Of a stretch of DNA of 13,057 bases, positions 765 through 13,035 are shown in pieces (within the stretch, counting starts at the first letter, position 1; each line of letters begins with the position of its first letter). A program made the position numbers and the translations under genes. This stretch comes from a bacterium (lineage in GTDB: Bacteria; CSSED10-310; JAJRTK01). Location: assembly GCA_024278345.1 (NCBI GenBank), contig JAJRTK010000450.1:1-13057 (forward strand), given 5' to 3'. The notes beneath the pieces are model-generated. The model worked only from the letters and a program-made list of their open reading frames with translations. It did not search any database and had not been told where the DNA came from.

Positions 765-2612
765 TTGAGTAGGAATTCGCTTTTTTCCTCGAAAAAAAAA
801 GGAAAGGCCTTGCCTCCAAAATGGCTTGTGAGTGCCGTCGCGGGAACTTGCCTGCTGGCCGTTGTCGTTCTTCTCTTGGCACTGGTGGCTCGGGAAAGCG
901 GTCCCGATTTCCAAGAGCTCCAGGCGGAATCCGACCATCTTCTTACGACAGGCCGGTTCCACAAGGCCGCGAAACTCTATACCGCCAGTGCCGAAGAGGC
1001 GAGCACCGACGAGCAACGTTCCCAGGCCATTGCGCACGGCGAGCTCGCCCGTCAACTGGCTCAAATCCGGCGGCTGGGATTGGAGGAAGAGCGGTACTCC
1101 ACGGCCTTGGGCCTATTGACAAAAATCGGCGGCCAGCCCCCGTGGATTGCGGCTCTGGTCGAAGCGGAGAAAACCGCGCTGGCCACGAGCCGTGCCAGGC
1201 GGATTGAGGAGCTTCTGGAGAGCGCCGGAAAATCTCTGAAATCCGGTAATGAGGCAGCAGCCTTCGAGGCACTGACCCGCTGTTTGAGCTTTGAGCTTGC
1301 CGACAGCGATCCCGTACAGAGGGACCTGGTTTCCCAAGTCGTCGAACTCTACCTGGTCTCACGTGAGCTGGACGCGCTGGAGACGGCAGAGCTGGGAAGC
1401 TTAGACGACGCCGTCGCGGCCATTGGCCGACTTGGGGCGTTCTGCGAGCAAAGCAAATCTTTGCTTCTGGACCCGGCCAGATGGAAAGGCCGCCTGGAGC
1501 GGCAACGGCAACAGCTTGAGTTTGAACGGCGAATCCTGGTTTCCGTCCGGACAGCGATTTCGAAGGGAGATCGGAAGGAAATCGAGCGGCTCCGCCCTGA
1601 ATTCGGCAAAGTGCGCCACGCCAGGGCGGCTCTCAGCGCGCTGCTGCCCCGCGCTGAAAACCTTGGAGGGTCGCCGGCCACTGTGGATGTGGCTCTTCTC
1701 CAGCCCCCCGTCCTCAAACCACTTGATCCAAGCCAACTCGTGCTCCAGGAGCTTGCCGCCGAGAGTGCGCCCGACTGGGATGAGCCACGGGAGCCCCCCG
1801 CCAGGCCCGGAAAACCCGCCGGGACCTCCGCCAGGCCCGGAAAACCCGCCGGGACCCCCGCCAGGCCCGGAAAACCCGCCGGGACCCCCGCCCAACCCAC
1901 GAGAGGATCGGCTTCCGAAAAAGAGGTCCTGTCCGTTGCCAAGATCTCGCGGCGCACCGTCGTTTCCCCCATCCCCCGTGCCACCAACCCACGGGTTCGG
2001 CAGCGGAGTCAGCGCCTTTTCCTGAAGGGAATGGAGCTGGAGAAAGAGGCCGGCAAACGCCAAGATACCGACTATTACCGGTTTGCGGTGGAAGCGTACA
2101 GCAAGATTTCCCAAGAGGCCGGGAGACTTCTCTACGTTCGCTCCCAGACGCGGGCGGGGAGGCTTCTTAGCTACGAACTACAGGACTACTCGGCGGCCGT
2201 GCCCCACTATGAGCAGGCGCTGCGGAAGGATCCTCGGCACCCCATCGTTTACTACGAGCTTGGCTATGCTTCCTACCAGCTTGGCCGTTACGAAGAGGCC
2301 ATCGAATCCCTTTCGAAAGCCGGGGTTTTTGCCGCCATCAATCCCGAGGAGATCGACGACCACACCGCCTTCGAGCTCCATTCCTTTTTTCTTGCGGCCC
2401 TGGCGGCCGAGGCGCGATCGACGCAGAACGAAAAAGAGCTGCTCTTCCTTCGTGACGCCATTTCGGCGTGGCGGAGCTTTTTGGAATCGTGCCAGGTCAA
2501 CCGATCCCGGTGCATCGACCTGCAGCGTTCCCGGGGCCAGGTCCATCTCCAACGTCTTCGCGAGCGCTTGAAGCGTTTTCCCTCTTCCCGGCGCCTTCCT
2601 TTCGAGGAATGA
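765..2612 (+). CDS. Membrane-anchored TPR protein with Pro/Gly/Lys-rich linker
   Basis: This 615-residue protein starts at TTG with a strong GGGAGG site. A short basic N-terminus (SKKKGK) and one hydrophobic helix at about residues 20-42 predict a single N-in anchor with the rest outside the cytoplasm. Residues ~45-300 are helical and repeat-like, with Ala/Leu/Glu-rich helices such as the GRFHKAAKLYTASAEEAS region. A flexible linker at about 346-375 has three copies of ARPGKPAGT(S/P). The C-terminal ~200 residues contain recognisable TPR pairs, best at about 479-521 (AAVPHYEQALRKDP, then YYELGYASYQLGRYEEAIES). TPR domains mediate protein-protein contacts, so it is probably a scaffold for an envelope complex, perhaps with the next two gene products. 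The precise role is unknown. It is the first gene of an apparent three-gene operon, with the next start 6 bases after its stop. Confidence 0.85.
   Translation: MSRNSLFSSKKKGKALPPKWLVSAVAGTCLLAVVVLLLALVARESGPDFQELQAESDHLLTTGRFHKAAKLYTASAEEASTDEQRSQAIAHGELARQLAQIRRLGLEEERYSTALGLLTKIGGQPPWIAALVEAEKTALATSRARRIEELLESAGKSLKSGNEAAAFEALTRCLSFELADSDPVQRDLVSQVVELYLVSRELDALETAELGSLDDAVAAIGRLGAFCEQSKSLLLDPARWKGRLERQRQQLEFERRILVSVRTAISKGDRKEIERLRPEFGKVRHARAALSALLPRAENLGGSPATVDVALLQPPVLKPLDPSQLVLQELAAESAPDWDEPREPPARPGKPAGTSARPGKPAGTPARPGKPAGTPAQPTRGSASEKEVLSVAKISRRTVVSPIPRATNPRVRQRSQRLFLKGMELEKEAGKRQDTDYYRFAVEAYSKISQEAGRLLYVRSQTRAGRLLSYELQDYSAAVPHYEQALRKDPRHPIVYYELGYASYQLGRYEEAIESLSKAGVFAAINPEEIDDHTAFELHSFFLAALAAEARSTQNEKELLFLRDAISAWRSFLESCQVNRSRCIDLQRSRGQVHLQRLRERLKRFPSSRRLPFEE
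1801..1890 (+). repeat. Three tandem 30-base repeats coding a Pro/Gly/Lys linker
   Basis: Three contiguous 30-base units (1801-1830, 1831-1860, 1861-1890) differ at a single visible position, a T for C near the end of the first copy. The unit is a multiple of three, so each codes ten residues and the frame is kept. Near-identity at DNA level suggests recent slippage or expansion. Confidence 0.9.
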
Positions 2613-2618
2613 ATTTCC

Positions 2619-3965
2619 GTGACCCCTTCCAAGAGACCCATTTTGGGGGCACCCACGCAGAGCGGGGCAGTTTGTCGCCAATCCGGTAGCAAACAATCGC
2701 CCTCCGTCCACCAAGATCTTCCGGCCCTGGGTCGTGCCTCACGTGGCGCAGATCTTGCCGGCGGCTGTTCTGCCTCGTTCCCCCCGCGCCTTGCTTCCTT
2801 CGCGCCGCGGTTATGGCTTGCGGCCGCGCCCTTTGGTTTCGGTAAAGCCGAACTCTCCGCGGTGCTCCGGAGCGCCTTGCATCTCGCTCCCTCAGCGCCC
2901 CGGTTTGCTCGGCGGTGGTCTGGGAACTCCCGCCGCGGCCCGTTGGGCCGCGTCTCGCTCCTGGGACTCCCGCTGGTGGTTTCCTGCCTGGGCGTCGTTT
3001 CGGTATGGGCTGACGAGACTCTCCAGGCCGACGGCGAACCCGCCGCGGGCGGTCATTCCTCCGCAAACAGGAGTCTCTATAGGTCCAAAGCGGGCTGGCT
3101 CCATCCGATTCCGGCGTCTGGAACCCCCGGCGTGGGGGACCGCTTGCTGTATGAGGCCCGGTTTTTTGAGGCGATGGCCGAGTTTCAAGGGCTTGACGAT
3201 CCAGCCTGGCGTCTTCTTGGGCTCGGGCAGGCGCATCTGGGGCTCGGGCGATTCTATACGGATCTCTGGCCCCTGGCGGCGCGCTTTGCCCAGGATCACC
3301 TTCAGCGGCTGGCGGGCGAACGGGAACTCAGTGCCGAAGAAAAGGAACAGGCGGCCTTTTTCCAGTGCGAAAGGGCCTCTCCGGCTCGTGAATGTGCCGG
3401 AGCCTGGGAGAGGGAATCCCCTTTGGCCAAGCTCCTGGCGCTGGAGGATCCGGCTCTTTTGTCCCGGGCCGATGAAGGAGGCGCACGGCTTTTCGGGGAA
3501 GAGATGTTGGGAGCCGGCCTTTCCAGAGTTCGAAGCCTGCCGCTGCTAGCTCGGCTCCACTTGCGCCTGGCAGTTCTGCGGCTCCTGGTTTTCAGGCAGT
3601 TGGCAGGAAGTGAGTCGTCCTCTATGGCCAGAGTCATGGAGATGGTCAAGGGGGCGCGGCGGCTCGCGGATCGCCAGCGTGCCAAAACTGGTGCATGGCG
3701 GCTTGGCGGAGAGGAAGCGATAGCGCGGCTCCGGCGAATGGAAGATGAAAAAGGGGTGCGGGACCTTCTCCGCCTGGACCCCGCCTGGCTCTTGCTCAAG
3801 GCCTGGATGAACTATGGTAAAGGCGGTTGTCGGGGCTATGCTTTGGCGACGATGGATCTATCAGCACTCGAAGAGACCTTTCCAGTGGTCCCGGAGGTCA
3901 CGGGCCTTCTGCGGCGCATCTACGCGTGGGACTGCACAGGGGGAGGACGGGTAGCAGGAGGTTGA
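2619..3965 (+). CDS. Unrecognised helical protein with an internal signal-like segment; start uncertain
   Basis: I do not recognise this protein. From GTG at 2619 (GAGGA at 2604-2608, 10 bases upstream) it has 448 residues. The first ~110 residues are rich in Ser, Ala, Arg and Pro and look unlike a folded domain. A basic stretch (SRRGPLGR) and a hydrophobic segment at about 113-131 ending in VSVWA then resemble a signal peptide cut before DETLQ. The real start could therefore be the TTG at 2943, which gives a compact signal peptide but has no clear ribosome site. The mature part is helical, with a TPR-like portion (YEARFFEAMAEFQ, then LLGLGQAHLGLGRF). It is probably exported to the periplasm. 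Its stop is 2 bases before the binding-protein start, which argues for translational coupling and a shared function with the neighbours. Confidence 0.65.
   Translation: MTPSKRPILGAPTQSGAVCRQSGSKQSPSVHQDLPALGRASRGADLAGGCSASFPPRLASFAPRLWLAAAPFGFGKAELSAVLRSALHLAPSAPRFARRWSGNSRRGPLGRVSLLGLPLVVSCLGVVSVWADETLQADGEPAAGGHSSANRSLYRSKAGWLHPIPASGTPGVGDRLLYEARFFEAMAEFQGLDDPAWRLLGLGQAHLGLGRFYTDLWPLAARFAQDHLQRLAGERELSAEEKEQAAFFQCERASPARECAGAWERESPLAKLLALEDPALLSRADEGGARLFGEEMLGAGLSRVRSLPLLARLHLRLAVLRLLVFRQLAGSESSSMARVMEMVKGARRLADRQRAKTGAWRLGGEEAIARLRRMEDEKGVRDLLRLDPAWLLLKAWMNYGKGGCRGYALATMDLSALEETFPVVPEVTGLLRRIYAWDCTGGGRVAGG
3956..3961 (+). promoter_or_regulatory. Ribosome binding site deciding a GTG start
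   Basis: A perfect AGGAGG at 3956-3961, inside the end of the preceding gene, lies 6 bases before GTG at 3968. It selects this start over upstream in-frame candidates, the earliest at 3827, and places a clean signal peptide at the N-terminus of the binding protein. Confidence 0.85.
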
Positions 3966-3967
3966 CA

Positions 3968-5728
3968 GTGGTTCGTGTTCCGCGGCGATGGCCCATTCTA
4001 TTGATCTGGCTGACGGCTGAGCTGGTTCCCGCGCTGGCGGCCAGTCAGGTCCCGGGAGGCCAGCTCAGTTACAGCTCCACACGGCGGCTCGTGGCGTACG
4101 ATCCCGTCAGCAACTTTAATTTGGCCACCACCAGGCTTTCCTCTCTTTTGTTCGAGCCCTTGGTGGAACGGGATCCTTACGGCTCCGGAGTTCTCCCGCG
4201 CCTGGCTCGTTCTTGGGAGGCCACTCCCAGCTCCGTCACCTTTTTCCTCAAGCGGGACGTACGGTGGCATGATGGCGTTCTGATGACTGCCGCCGACGTG
4301 AAGTTAACGGTCAGGGTCATCCGCAATCCGCGCAGCGGGAGTCCTCTCCGGGACGAGTTTGACTTCATCCGATCCATCGAGATCCTGGACCCCTTCACTG
4401 TCCGTTTTCGGTTCCACGATCAGCAGCTCGAACCAGAGAAGCATTTTCTTGGTCTTTACGTTCTTCCGAAGCACCGCTTCAGGGTTTTCGACAAGACCCG
4501 GGTCACGTGGCGGGAGATCTTTCTGGAATGCCGCTTCAAAGATGTGGATCTTTACGTCGAACCCGATGAAGGCTCAACGGTCAAGGGAAAACTCCAGCCC
4601 AGGACTGAGGTGGAGCTCCTGTCGAATCGCCCCGGCTGGCTCCAGGTCCGGGTGGTGGGCGGCGGCCAGAAGGGCCTCGAAGGCTGGACGCAGCAGAACT
4701 GGCCATTCCTTACCGAAGACAACATTGATTTCTTCCTCCACCCCATCGGCACCGGCCCCTACCGTTTCGAAAGCGTCGATCTCAACGGCAACGTCGTCTT
4801 GGACGCCTGGAAGGGTTACCACCAGGGCCGGCCCAACATCGATCGCATCCGGCGGCGGCGGAGTTCCGACAAGAACACCATGATCAACCGCCTAGTTCAG
4901 GAGGTCATCGACCTCATTCCCGAGACCCCCTTCGAGGACATCGCCCGGATTCGGAACTCCGGCATCTGCCGCACCGTGGAATACCCCTCCCTGAAGTTCG
5001 CCGGCTTCGCCTTCAACCTCAAGATCCCCTTCCTGGCCCACAAAGAGGTGCGGCAAGCTCTCACCATGGCCCTCAACCGAGCCGAGATCCTAAAAACCTA
5101 TTACCAGAACCAGGGCACAGTCCTCGCTGGCCCCTTCTCTCCCCATAGTTGGGGCTACGACTTCGAGCTGGAGCCCTACCCCTTCGCTCCTCAAAAGGCC
5201 CGCCAGCTTATGACCCCCTACCTCGCGGCCCGCCAAGGAAAGCCACCCCTCCGGCTCATCGTCTCCAACGACCGGAAGCCCGAGGATCAGAACGTCTGCC
5301 ACGCACTGGCCTCAACACTGAAAAAGCTGGGGATCCCCACGGAGATCGTTACCATGGAGCGGACCAGCTTCGACGAGGCCCTCCGCAAGGGCCGCTTCGA
5401 CCTGGCTTTTGTCGAATGGAACTTCGACCACTCCTACAATGTGCGCCCCCTCTTCCATCCACGGGGCACCCTGAACTTTTCCGGCTACGCCAATCCCGAG
5501 GTTCGCGACCTTTTTCAGAAACTTGAGTCCACCCAGTCCCGCGAGAAACGATACGACCTCGTCCGCATGCTCCAGCGCCAGCTCCGGGATGACAGCCCCT
5601 ATATCTTTCTCTGGACCACCAAGAACATCGCCTCTGTCCACCGCCGCATCGCCAACTTCAAGTCCTCCAACATCGATCCCTACTCCTTCTTCCAAAGGGT
5701 CACCCAGTGGTGGATCAGTGAGTTCTAG
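3968..5728 (+). CDS. Extracytoplasmic solute-binding protein (SBP_bac_5, DppA/OppA type) with an SH3b-like insertion
   Basis: This protein of 586 residues has an N-terminal signal peptide (basic RRW, hydrophobic ILLIWL, likely cut near ALAA at about 22-25). Family 5 signatures follow in order: SSLLFEPLV, the VTFFLKRDVRWHDG and TAADV motif, LPKHRF, PIGTGPYRFE, the VRQALTMALNRAEIL helix, and the C-terminal lobe with FDLAFVEWN. Such proteins bind oligopeptides, nickel or other ligands in the periplasm and usually hand them to an ABC importer. Between LPKHRF and GTGPYRF, residues ~192-247 form an SH3b-like domain that most family members lack. No permease or ATPase gene is nearby, and the partners are a TPR protein and an unknown exported protein. 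It could be an envelope sensor or binding factor instead of a transport subunit. The family is clear; the ligand is unknown. Confidence 0.9.
   Translation: MVRVPRRWPILLIWLTAELVPALAASQVPGGQLSYSSTRRLVAYDPVSNFNLATTRLSSLLFEPLVERDPYGSGVLPRLARSWEATPSSVTFFLKRDVRWHDGVLMTAADVKLTVRVIRNPRSGSPLRDEFDFIRSIEILDPFTVRFRFHDQQLEPEKHFLGLYVLPKHRFRVFDKTRVTWREIFLECRFKDVDLYVEPDEGSTVKGKLQPRTEVELLSNRPGWLQVRVVGGGQKGLEGWTQQNWPFLTEDNIDFFLHPIGTGPYRFESVDLNGNVVLDAWKGYHQGRPNIDRIRRRRSSDKNTMINRLVQEVIDLIPETPFEDIARIRNSGICRTVEYPSLKFAGFAFNLKIPFLAHKEVRQALTMALNRAEILKTYYQNQGTVLAGPFSPHSWGYDFELEPYPFAPQKARQLMTPYLAARQGKPPLRLIVSNDRKPEDQNVCHALASTLKKLGIPTEIVTMERTSFDEALRKGRFDLAFVEWNFDHSYNVRPLFHPRGTLNFSGYANPEVRDLFQKLESTQSREKRYDLVRMLQRQLRDDSPYIFLWTTKNIASVHRRIANFKSSNIDPYSFFQRVTQWWISEF
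4541..4708 (+). other. SH3b-like domain inserted in the binding protein
   Basis: This stretch codes residues ~192-247. It follows the bacterial SH3 pattern: a DLYVEPDEGSTVKGKL opening, a TEVELLSNRPGWLQVRV core strand pair, and a closing LEGWTQQNW strand. It sits exactly between two conserved blocks of the SBP_bac_5 fold. Confidence 0.7.
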
Positions 5729-8041: not shown

Positions 8042-10887
8042 CTAGCGGCGTTTTCGTTTGGAACGCACGGTCTGCTTGCGGCCTTTTTGCCATTCCCCCC
8101 AATAATAGACGACGGGGCTGGCAATGAAAATGCTTGAGTAGGTACCGGCAACGACACCGATGGTCAAAGCCACGGCGAAGTCCTTGATCACTTCCCCGCC
8201 AAACATGAGAAGCATGAGAACGACGAAGAGAGTCGTCAAACTCGTCAAGACCGTACGGCTCAAGGTCTCGTTGATACTGGCATTCAAGAGTTCGATGACT
8301 CCCTTCTTTCGGAATCTTCGTTCGTTTTCGCGAACGCGATCAAAGACGACGATGGTATCATTCAAAGAGTAACCGACGACGGTCAAGATAGCGGCAATGG
8401 TGGGAAGATCGACCTCAAGCCCGAGCCAGGAGAAGACTGCCAACGTGATGAGAACGTCGTGGAAAAGGGCTACGACGGCTCCCAGGGCGTAGCAAAATTC
8501 AAAGCGTACGCTGACGTAGAGAAGAATGCCGATGAGAGCCGCGATGACGGCCAATGTTGCCGCCTCCTTGAGCTCGTCTCCTACTTGGGGCCCCACGAGC
8601 TCCGCTCGGCGTTCCGTCACCTCGTTCCTGTCACCCTCCTCAGATTCATAATGTTGCTTGAGGATTCTAAGGATTCGAGCCGTGATCTCGCTGATCCGGA
8701 TCTGGACCTTCTCTTCCTGGATGGAGATCTTGGCGTTTTCACCGAGCCCCACTGCGGCCAGGGCGTTTTCCAAATCCTCGACCTTCGTGTTTTCTTCGGG
8801 AAGCAACAGGATTTCCGCGTGGGATGCGCGATCATCGAACTCAAAGGGTAGATTGAGGCCTTCCTTAATCTTCGCCTCAAGCTCCATTTTCGTCTTCGCA
8901 ACCGACGCTTCCGAAGCCTGTGTGCGGATAAGGATTTCGTTTTCTTCTCCGAAGGTCTGGATACTGGGTGTAAAACCAGTTTTCCTAAGAACTTTACGGA
9001 TTTCGTCAATGGCCACCGGCTTTGCGAATTGAACTTGGAGAAGAGCGCCTCCGGAGAAGTCGATCCCCCAGTTCAAGATGTTCCCCTCAGTGACCCGATT
9101 GAAGCCCATTGAAACGAGGCCTAGAACAATGAAAACCAGCGAGGCGCCAAGCGCTTGACGCCTGAAGCTCAGAAAATTGTAGCTCGTCTGACCAACCAGG
9201 GCCCTGAAGCGAATCTGAAACTTCGGCCAGTAGGTGAGGACCACCCTGTAGATGAGCTTCGAGATCACAAGAGCCGAGAACATCGACGCGAGGACGCCGA
9301 TGGTCAAGGTGATGGCGAACCCACGAACCGGGCCGCTTCCGAATTGCATCAACACGAACGCCGCAATGAGTGTGGTCACGTTGGCGTCCGCAATGGCCGA
9401 GGTTGCCTTGTCGAAGCCATAGCGGATAGCGACGCGTACGCTTTTGGTGTTGGCCATCTCCTCCCTGATCCGCTCAAAGATCAGGACATTCGCGTCCACC
9501 GCCATACCGACAGTCAAGACGAGCCCCGCTATGCCAGGCAAAGTGAGGGCAGCTCCGAACAAAGCCAGAACCGCCATCAGGATCAGCATCGTAAAGAAGA
9601 GGCCGATAAGTGCGTTGATTCCGCTTGCACGGTAGTAGATGACGATGAAGATAAGAACCAGAAAAAATCCGAAGAGAAGGGCATTGCGGCCTTGCCGGAT
9701 GGAGTCGTCTCCCAAGGTCGCCCCCACCGAGCGCTCCTCCAAATACTCCACGCTGGCCGGCAATGCCCCGGAGCGCAAGGTCAACGCCAGCTCATAGGCC
9801 TCTTGCTGAGTGAAATAACCGGTAATCTGGCCATTTCGCGTAATGCGCCCCTGGAGGGTCGGTGCTGACTTGACGCGGCCATCGAGGATAATGGCCATCT
9901 GCTTTCCGAGATTCTCCTTGGTCAGGCGCCCGAATGCTGTCGATGAGGCCGGCTTGATGGTGAATTCGATATCCGGCTTGCCGTACTGGTCCGCTCCAAC
10001 GTGGGCACTCTCGAGATCGCGACCCGATGCCGGAACATTGCCCTCAAGGCGATAATAGCCAGGGCTCGAACGATCTCCCAAGGCGGGGAGAGCCCCCGGG
10101 AGGATCACGGAGCCGTCGGGACAAACATATTTCTCTTTCTGATCCGCCGGGTCCGAATCGGGACAACCCGCGGGAAACTTTGCCATGAGGGTTTCCTTCG
10201 TGGGAGCTTCCTCGATGACGATTCGGAACTCCAACTCGGCAACTTTCCCAATGACGCGCTTTGCCTGGTCGGGGTCTTTCAATCCGGGCAGTTGGATCAG
10301 GATGCGATGGCCTGTGAGTCCTTGCCTTTGGATATTCGGCTCCGCGACCCCCAGTTGGTCGATCCGGTTGCGAAGCGTTTCCATGACTTGGGAGAAGGCA
10401 TCTTCCTCGATCTTGGACACATAGCTCGGTTCCGCTCTCACGGTTAAGTAATAGGCGCGATCTCTGGAGAAGCTCGATATGGTGAAGCTCCTGCCAAGAT
10501 AGGCTGAGAGAGGAGTGTTGGCATTTGTCCGTTCTTCGGATCTCAAGAACTTGATCTGAATGGTATTTTCGACCTTCCGAACGCTCTGGTAGGGAACGTT
10601 GTCGCTGCTCAGGCGAGCCTTGATGTCGTTGACAAGGCCTTCTAGCTCTTTGTCGAGGACTTCATCGGTCCGCACCTTGAGGAGCAGATACATTCCTCCC
10701 TGGAGATCGAGTCCGAGGCGCAAAGAGTTTTCCTGGAGCTGCTGGTACAGGTCGGGATCGGTTTCCTGGAGTTTTTCAAATTCTTGGCGGCTGTACGAAA
10801 GCGATCAACGGTTGGCTTCAGGACGTAAAGGCAAGCCACCAGAAGCGCAAGGATCAAGGCAAGGTAGATCTTCAGGTCTTGCTTCAT
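8042..10887 (-). CDS. secDF: SecDF, fused Sec translocon accessory protein (apparent frameshift near the 5' end)
   Basis: SecD and SecF use the proton motive force to help preproteins cross the inner membrane with SecYEG and YajC. Here they are one chain of about 948 residues once the frameshift is bridged. The start codon (ATG at 10885-10887) opens MKQDLKIYLALILALLVACL, the expected first SecD helix. The rest (EFEKLQETDPDLYQQLQ, then LGLDLQGGM at ~58) lies in another frame, with a stop (TGA) just upstream in that frame. Further landmarks are GMAVDANVLIFERI of SecD at ~460, the SecD/SecF junction around ~570, WGIDFSGG of SecF at ~608 and LNDTIVVFDRVREN at ~840. The SecF periplasmic part is larger than usual. 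The gene lies 28 bases after yajC in the usual yajC-secD-secF order. If the shift is real, the first helix would be lost and function impaired; a missed base seems more likely. Confidence 0.92.
10798..10803 (-). other. secDF: Frameshift point in secDF
   Basis: The - strand reads GAT CGC TTT CGT ACA in the start-codon frame. One additional T would give GAT CGC TTT TCG TAC AGC and join DRF to SYSRQEFEKLQ in the SecD frame. The T run is at 10800-10798. A single missing base therefore explains the break. Confidence 0.8.
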
Positions 10888-10915
10888 GAGGGATGGGACT
10901 CCGGAGGAAGTACAG

Positions 10916-11239
10916 TCAGTTATTGGGCTTGTCGAGCTTCGTCGCCACGGCGGATCGGTTAATTTGGACCGTGGTCTTGTCCGCGATTCTAAGCTTGATG
11001 ATCTTGTCGTTCAGCCCCTGAATCGCGCCGTGAAGCCCGCCATTGGTCACCACCTTATCCCCTTTCTTGAGTGCCTCGAGCATTTGGTCGTGCTGTTTGC
11101 GCTCCTTGACCTGGGGGCGGATGAGCAAAAAGTAGAAAATGCCGAAAACCACGAAGATTGGCAACAGTTGTTCGATAACGCTGCCGCCTCCGCTTCCCGA
11201 TTGGGCCATGGCGAAGTAGAGCGGTGAAAGGTTGGGCAT
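10916..11239 (-). CDS. yajC: YajC, Sec translocon accessory membrane protein
   Basis: This protein of 107 residues matches the usual YajC size. It has a short N-terminus with Gly/Ser-rich SGSGGGS, one transmembrane helix at about 21-41 ending in the family hallmark FYFLLIRPQ, and then the basic ERKQHDQMLEALKKGDKVVTNGG segment that is diagnostic of YajC. A small beta domain (IIKLRIADKTTVQINRSAVA) follows. YajC associates with SecDF at the inner membrane. The ATG at 11239 is chosen because GAGGAA lies 6 bases upstream. A longer in-frame start at 11332 would add 31 residues unlike the family. The stop is 28 bases before secDF, so the two are very probably co-transcribed. Confidence 0.94.
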   Translation of the reverse strand: MPNLSPLYFAMAQSGSGGGSVIEQLLPIFVVFGIFYFLLIRPQVKERKQHDQMLEALKKGDKVVTNGGLHGAIQGLNDKIIKLRIADKTTVQINRSAVATKLDKPNN

Positions 11240-11245
11240 TGTCGG

Positions 11246-11251
11246 TTCCTC
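11246..11251 (-). promoter_or_regulatory. yajC: Ribosome binding site of yajC
   Basis: The - strand reads GAGGAA at 11251-11246, 6 bases before ATG at 11239. It settles the shorter of the two possible yajC starts. Confidence 0.75.
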
Positions 11252-11423
11252 AAGAAAAAGGGATAAACTCCCGCTGCGGATGATTTGCGATGATGGCGGA
11301 TGCCGCGGTCGCCTTTTGGGGAGAATCTTCACGAGTTTGAAGATCTCACCGCTCCAAGGGGTGTTTGAGGGCCAGGCGGAGTGGAAGACTCGATCTAGTT
11401 GTCAAACGCCAGCGCTCTCAGGA

Positions 11424-12623
11424 TCAGTTTCCATGGGGCTCCGCGAGCCTGGGAACCAGATCTTCGTAAAACCGTGAAAAACAACCTTCCTCTATAGCCG
11501 CTCGCACCCTTTTCATCAAGCGGAGATAGAAGAAAAGATTGTGCGTTGTGAGGAGGATGGCCGCCAAAATCTCCTTGCTCATGAAGAGATGGCGGAGGTA
11601 GGCCCGGCTGAATCTCTGGCACGTAGAACAATCGCAAAAGGGTTCCAGAGGCGCCTCATCCCGCTTGAAGCGGCTATTCTTGATATTGAGACGACCCTCC
11701 AGTGTGTAGGCAGCCCCGTTCCGGCCCAATCTTGTGGGCAAGACGCAGTCAAACAGATCCACGCCTCTGGCAACGGATTCCAGGATGTCGATGGGCCGGC
11801 CCACACCCATCAGATACCGGGGCTTCGAAACAGCCATTTCAGGAACGAGCCATTCAAGGGTACGCAACATCAATTCCGGAGGCTCTCCCACCGACAGCCC
11901 CCCAATGGCATAGCCGGGAAGATCAAGTTTCAAGAGATCCTCAAGGCTTCTGAGCCGCTCGTTGCGGTACACGCTCCCCTGCACGATGGCGAACAGGAAT
12001 TGGGACTCGTTCCCCGATTCCGCCAGAGCCTCGAAGGCCGCCTTCGAGCGCCAAGCCCAGTCCGTCGTCCTTGCCACCGCTGACTGCGCCTGCTCTTCCG
12101 AGCAGGGATAGGGAGGGCATTCGTCGAGCACCATGGCGATATCCGAACCCAGATCACGCTGGATCTCCACGGAGAGCTCGGGCGTCAAAAGGTGGCGAGA
12201 GCCATCGATGTGAGAGCGGAAAAGCGCCCCTTCGTCGCTTAGCTGGAGCAGGCTTCGGTGGGAAAAAACCTGATACCCGCCGCTATCCGTGAGGATCGAG
12301 CCACTCCAGCCCATGAACCGGTGGAGACCCCCCAACTCCCTAATCAGCCGATGACCGGGCCTTAGGTAGAGATGATAAGTGTTGCAGACAATTTGTCGCG
12401 CCCCCAATTCCTCGACGATCCCGGGATCCATCGCCTTGACGCTCGCCGCGGTACCCACCGGCATGAACGCCGGGGTCTCCACAATTCCATGACCCGTATG
12501 GAGCCGCCCGCGCCGGGCGCCCGAAGAATTTGCCAGAAGCTCGAAAACATCCGTTCGGCGCCGATCATCCGAACAATACCGCGAAGCATACAAAGTGCGG
12601 GTGGGGAACTCGTTGCTTTTCAT
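11424..12623 (-). CDS. tgt: tRNA-guanine transglycosylase
   Basis: Bacterial Tgt exchanges guanine-34 for preQ1 in GUN-anticodon tRNAs, an intermediate step of queuosine synthesis in the cytoplasm. From ATG at 12623 the protein has 399 residues. Visible landmarks are ARRGRLHTGHGIVETPAFMPVGT near the N-terminus, D113 in LTDSGGYQVFS (general base), VLDECPP, IVQGSVY (the usual second Gly of QGG is Ser), YAIGGLSVGEP, and the nucleophilic Asp in VDLFDCVLPTRLGRNG (~D292). A zinc site is formed by CDCSTC (330, 332, 335) and H361. The start is not certain. The frame is open to 12836 but those 71 extra residues do not resemble the family, and the ATG at 12623 has only a weak ribosome site. yajC follows after 184 bases in the typical tgt-yajC-secDF order. 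queA is not seen next to it. Confidence 0.96.
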   Translation of the reverse strand: MKSNEFPTRTLYASRYCSDDRRRTDVFELLANSSGARRGRLHTGHGIVETPAFMPVGTAASVKAMDPGIVEELGARQIVCNTYHLYLRPGHRLIRELGGLHRFMGWSGSILTDSGGYQVFSHRSLLQLSDEGALFRSHIDGSRHLLTPELSVEIQRDLGSDIAMVLDECPPYPCSEEQAQSAVARTTDWAWRSKAAFEALAESGNESQFLFAIVQGSVYRNERLRSLEDLLKLDLPGYAIGGLSVGEPPELMLRTLEWLVPEMAVSKPRYLMGVGRPIDILESVARGVDLFDCVLPTRLGRNGAAYTLEGRLNIKNSRFKRDEAPLEPFCDCSTCQRFSRAYLRHLFMSKEILAAILLTTHNLFFYLRLMKRVRAAIEEGCFSRFYEDLVPRLAEPHGN

Positions 12624-12645
12624 TGCAACGGGTTCTTGCGCGCTT

Positions 12646-12705
12646 CCTGGCGAGGTCCAGGAGCAGCGCTCCTGGCGGAGGTCCGGAGCCGGAGCTTCCG
12701 CCAGG
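12646..12705 (-). promoter_or_regulatory. tgt leader with 25-base imperfect tandem repeat and competing hairpins
   Basis: Two 25-base units (12646-12670 and 12671-12695) begin CCTGGCG and share the AGGTCC-GGAGC core. CCAGGAGC (12657-12664) pairs with GCTCCTGG (12668-12675) around 3 bases. CCTGGCGGA (12671-12679) pairs with TCCGCCAGG (12697-12705). A shorter stem joins CCTGG (12646-12650) with CCAGG (12657-12661). The stems share bases, so they cannot all form together. The leader could regulate tgt, but no known riboswitch pattern was recognised. Confidence 0.5.
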
Positions 12706-12881
12706 GGCCGGGACCGGAGGCCCTGGCGCTGTGCCCAAAATTCACTGGGGGATCGGTCCGTCATGATGATCCTGGTCTCCGCTGCTGCTACGATACAGCT
12801 TCCAGGTTGACACTTTGTTGGAAGCGAACATAGCAATTGAGTGCGGCGAGGACGAATGCCCGAGCGGGCAGATCACGAATC

Positions 12882-13035
12882 GGGACCTATCAAATTGTCG
12901 TGTTTTTGCTTTACAATTTTCTTCGCCGAAACGGTGGCACCGGCATCTTGCCGGTGTAGCGCCCTCCGGGCTGCACGGAGCCGGGAAGGAGGCCCGCCCC
13001 AGCGGTGATGCTGTCAACCGGATCTGATAGGTCCC
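12882..13035. repeat. 11-base inverted repeat pair
   Basis: GGGACCTATCA at 12882-12892 is repeated in inverted orientation as TGATAGGTCCC at 13025-13035. The 9-base word CACGAATCG abuts or overlaps each arm in direct orientation (12874-12882 and 13036-13044). The pair encloses the REP-like hairpin. Confidence 0.6.
12938..12956. repeat. REP-like palindromic hairpin
   Basis: CACCGGCA (12938-12945) and TGCCGGTG (12949-12956) form a perfect 8-base-pair stem with a TCT loop. A second short stem, GCCC-TCC-GGGC (12961-12971), follows at once. Short GC-rich extragenic palindromes in this style are typical of dispersed REP/BIME elements. Other copies would be needed to confirm the class. Confidence 0.5.

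Follow-up and report, generated by a model that had tools for sequence, protein, structure and literature searches.

An SH3-type module inserted in a DppA/OppA-type solute-binding protein of an uncharacterised bacterial phylum

What is an SH3-like domain doing inside a solute-binding protein (SBP)? The question is raised by a gene on a 13,057-nucleotide contig (JAJRTK010000450.1; the window) of a bacterium of the phylum CSSED10-310, in which extra residues lie between two conserved blocks, ILPKH and PIGTGPY, of a DppA/OppA-type protein. The open reading frame starts at TTG 3962 or GTG 3968, giving a product of at most 588 residues, and the N-terminus reads as a signal peptide without a lipobox cysteine. 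The Pfam profile SBP_bac_5 (PF00496) matched residues 78-490 with an E-value of 5.8e-59 and 200.5 bits, above its curated cut-off of 32.4, bearing out the family-5 assignment made in the initial annotation. The solved structures closest in sequence are DppA, AppA and their relatives, and AlphaFold modelled the core confidently as two lobes (mean pLDDT 83.9, most of the core above 90), to which AppA, NikZ, CtaP and DppA were among the nearest folds in Foldseek. TM-scores by target length were 0.75-0.89 for AppA, NikZ and DppA, the best matches, with 0.82 and an E-value of 4.7e-41 for AppA. By sequence and by model, the core keeps the two-lobed binding-protein fold, and it shares its full extent, fold and order of blocks with the cluster-C SBPs DppA, AppA and NikZ, from which the protein differs in an SH3_3-bearing insertion of about 74 residues. 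The murein tripeptide-binding protein MppA (PDB 3o9p, 4toz) has the same family-5 fold, but with a chain of 515 residues it is too short to accommodate such an insertion, and identity in the fold alignment is about 16%.

Table 1. Coordinates of the features discussed (residue numbers refer to the SBP)
Feature	Position in the window	Strand	Basis
Carboxypeptidase-regulatory-like/PEGA beta-sandwich protein, end only (truncated at the contig edge)	3..476	+	CarboxypepD_reg, PEGA
TPR protein, single transmembrane segment at the N-terminus	765..2612	+	Pfam TPR families
Exported alpha-helical protein, possible lipoprotein (LVVSC)	2943..3965	+	Sequence reading
Family-5 SBP (DppA/OppA type) with SH3b insertion	3962..5728	+	SBP_bac_5, Foldseek, sequence reading
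Whole ILPKH-to-PIGTGPY region, residues 175-258	4484..4735	+	Length comparison with 85 relatives
SH3_3-type core, residues 194-242	4541..4687	+	Pfam SH3_3, paralogue scores, predicted strands

From the start of ILPKH to the end of PIGTGPY, the window SBP and the four further insert-bearing copies described below span 106-109 residues, compared with 27-41 residues (mode 32) in 85 insert-free relatives in a joint alignment, hence the excess of about 74 residues. The insert had initially been put at about 56 residues, which falls short of the real excess; the SH3 core takes up about 50 of the extra residues, the remainder being linker. Across the core residues listed in Table 1, Pfam SH3_3 (PF08239; curated cut-off 27 bits) matched the whole window SBP with 21.5 bits (E-value 2.7e-4) and the excised insert with 25.7 bits (E-value 1.3e-5), just under the cut-off. 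Two paralogues from the same genome, C17 (43.7 bits, 3.2e-11) and C517 (27.1 bits), are at or above it, which supports an SH3_3 identity of the insert; of the two copies from the other genome, one gave 15.7 bits and one no match. Taken with the SBP_bac_5 match and the excess length relative to relatives, the paralogue scores support the initial proposal that an SH3b-type domain is inserted in a family-5 SBP.

Within the insert, AlphaFold predicted strands at 196-199, 207-210, 217-223, 226-231 and 240-244, five in all (pLDDT only about 39-70), based on an alignment of the window SBP with 39 insert-free relatives that left out the paralogues and held no information on the insert. These predicted strands fit an SH3 barrel, short of proof. 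Folded alone, the insert gave a poor model (pLDDT 47), and its profile matched solved structures only with E-values of 0.09-0.9, bacterial SH3 domains among them, including, at 0.18, one from a cell-wall hydrolase (PDB 2kq8). Unlike SH3 domains that terminate a hydrolase or stand in tandem, the present one is internal to an SBP. Pairwise identity among the five copies is 12-38% in the insert versus 37-54% in the core, and only a P, a G and a W are invariant in the insert, so that no common binding surface is visible.

The same insertion was found in homologues, and their neighbours were recorded: a search of 60 genomes gave four more complete copies whose alignment runs across the insert, with 37-42% identity over the full length. 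Two of them (C517 and C17) reside in the same genome as the window copy, while the other two (C38 and C217) share a second genome from the phylum. Scanning named genome contigs added 80 loci of relatives, all of them insert-free, with no insert-like domain in any. In a tree calculated without the insert columns, the five insert-bearing SBPs form one clade (support 0.999), with L038 from a Rhodothermia contig as its sister, and this single clade argues for a single insertion event. A profile of the insertion site, run on 386 genomes sampled across the domain, detected the insert architecture in two, both from this phylum, of whose eight genomes two carry it; a sample centred on genome G003 and searched with a stricter cut-off, seemingly in large part a repeat of the first, had the insert in 0 of 384 other genomes. 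The search of 386 genomes also gave four weak matches outside the phylum (E-values 3.5e-8 to 9.5e-7); most of what they match is the SH3 part of the profile, none reaches the ILPKH block, and from the matched range alone we take them to be other SH3 proteins. The inserted SH3 module is a real but modest structural novelty, and a literature search found no report of an SH3 module inside an SBP in titles or abstracts.

A DPD motif closely follows the pocket tryptophan in some four fifths of the insert-free relatives, whereas all five insert-bearing SBPs have lost it and share [SG]Y[NF].[RK]P[LI]F.P.G in its place. The loss of DPD argues for a changed ligand, the motif leaving unsaid which one; the clade probably binds something other than the ligand of standard dipeptide binders. 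Asp436 of DppA (precursor numbering), which we take to be the acidic residue anchoring the ligand's amine, aligns with D489 of the window SBP and with N, G, S and G in the four sisters, and the ligand may differ among the five copies. According to the title of PDB entry 8z1z, Asp436 of DppA was mutated together with Arg383.

No ABC permease was found near the window copy, C17 or C217, and the initial statement that a permease is missing stands for the window locus. It does not carry over to two of the five loci, as C517 and C38 are directly followed by DppB, DppC and two Dpp-type ATPases, a complete Dpp-type importer; Pfam confirmed both permeases and both ATPases with the oligopeptide C-terminal domain at C517, and the C38 set was read from open reading frames. 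A PD40 beta-propeller gene lies upstream of the SBP gene at C517, C38 and C217, and at E-values up to 1e-12 PD40 genes of this type had no match in the two genomes other than upstream of insert-bearing SBPs. The nearest insert-free relatives (e.g. L038, L039 and L041) have ordinary DppBC neighbours and almost no TPR or PD40 genes. LpxC is encoded beside C517, from which we conclude that the organism is diderm.

The window SBP gene begins where the stop codon of the helical-protein gene (probable start TTG 2943) overlaps or abuts it. Pfam found no family in the helical protein; the position of its gene matches that of helical genes preceding the SBP genes at loci L033 and L034, to whose products it bears weak C-terminal similarity only (hhalign E-values 0.018-0.077). 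Further upstream, the TPR protein matched TPR genes at L033, L031 and L034 in phmmer (1.5e-22, 1.1e-9 and 3.6e-7, respectively), and with TPR homologues upstream of three other insert-bearing SBPs, such genes occur at four of the five loci. The truncated product at the contig edge matched CarboxypepD_reg at 2.4e-6, below the cut-off, and PEGA at 0.0065, and it has a homologue directly upstream of the TPR gene at L033 (phmmer 2.6e-10). Between the TPR and SBP genes of the window there is no PD40 gene. The exported protein and the TPR protein had both been proposed as operon partners of the SBP, which agrees with the close junction of the former and with the recurrence of the latter beside sister copies. 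However, about 330 bp filled with dispersed repeats separate the window TPR gene from the next gene, and as repeats also precede it, it may well be a separate transcription unit. At L033 (2348-15297), nine genes run in succession, encoding a carboxypeptidase-regulatory-like protein, a zinc-ribbon TPR protein, a PD40 propeller, a helical protein, the SH3-bearing SBP, DppB, DppC and two ABC ATPases; at L034, an open reading frame of 754 residues without a Pfam family (10663-12927) directly follows the SBP gene.

We suggest, with about even confidence, that the window protein is the SBP of a Dpp/Opp-type importer in which a once-inserted SH3_3 module serves for docking or tethering and the core passes its ligand to a Dpp-type permease. 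Reading it as an importer SBP draws on the SBP and SH3_3 matches, the conservation at five loci, the single clade, the complete permease sets at two of the five loci and the PD40 and TPR neighbours. A single insertion at the ILPKH/PIGTGPY junction, in a common ancestor of some members of this small diderm phylum, would have given the periplasmic SBP its module. This would most likely be a handle fixing the SBP to a periplasmic partner, and candidates for the partner are peptidoglycan and the TPR, PD40 beta-propeller or helical proteins inherited along with the SBP. The core would capture the ligand and hand it to a Dpp-type permease; the window copy, a paralogue without a permease of its own, would probably feed the one beside the C517 sister gene. 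Against this reading stand the lower conservation of the insert relative to the core, with only P, G and W invariant, the score of the window copy below the Pfam cut-off, the low model confidence of the insert and the poor model of the insert folded alone. A bolder version, which we consider rather doubtful, is that the clade has built the SH3 docking module into the SBP to anchor it in a larger periplasmic capture assembly with dedicated TPR, beta-propeller and beta-sandwich proteins. SBPs usually either diffuse or are held by a lipid anchor; an SH3 module inside the protein, if it does act in docking, would be another way to position an SBP and would offer a handle for finding periplasmic importer partners in an uncharacterised phylum.

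Other explanations can be weighed against this one. That assembly produced the extra residues, or that they are just the inter-lobe region usual for the family, is so improbable as to be negligible: the window copy does stand below the SH3_3 cut-off when viewed alone, but such readings are ruled out by the 27-41 residues that 85 relatives have at the site and by paralogues that reach the cut-off, and five independent loci in two genomes have the insert in open frame. The insertion might instead decorate the surface, neutral or doing no more than stabilise the protein, and have been passed on by descent with no part in binding, in which case its interest would be confined to domain evolution. 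The faster divergence of the insert relative to the core and its lack of invariant surface residues speak for a decoration, yet five copies whose cores are about 40% identical have retained a similar length (106-109 residues) and the glycine-tryptophan motif, and random decorations are usually lost or vary in length; we consider this explanation rather unlikely.

Many bacterial SH3 domains bind the cell wall, and the module could bind stem peptides or cross-bridges of peptidoglycan and thereby fix the SBP to the sacculus, possibly for the collection of murein peptides, in line with the initial proposal. The sacculus would be within reach of an exported SBP in a diderm organism. However, SH3_3 domains mediate other contacts too, the invariant P and GW of the insert look structural, TPR and PD40 genes, not genes for murein hydrolases, surround the SBP genes, and the DPD loss argues for a changed ligand without saying which. 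Nothing in the sequence singles out murein peptides, and such a role is unlikely. The window copy might also be an orphan SBP of a signalling or receptor type, sensing a ligand and passing it to the TPR or helical protein instead of a permease. The permease-free loci of the window copy, C17 and C217 and the overlapping or abutting helical-protein gene are consistent with an orphan receptor, but sister copies in the same and the related genome sit in complete importer operons, and it is common for orphan SBPs to share a permease; we consider a receptor role unlikely for the window copy.

The window holds several further elements. Positions 600-733 hold a dispersed intergenic repeat that matches about 40 listed places in the genome with 79-97% identity (544 first-look candidates); its predicted folding is unremarkable (z -1.67), and Rfam found no family in the window. 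A second repeat of this dispersed intergenic kind, at 2893-2960, matches most of 40 listed places with 78-90% identity. At 1795-1892, a 30-base tandem repeat (3.3 copies, 97% matches) gives the TPR protein a linker with repeats of the PARPGKPAGT type. On the reverse strand, at 8042-10723, an open reading frame of 893 residues seems by eye to fuse SecD and SecF; it adjoins YajC-like and Tgt-like open reading frames, likewise assigned by eye, and a RelA/SpoT gene confirmed by Pfam.
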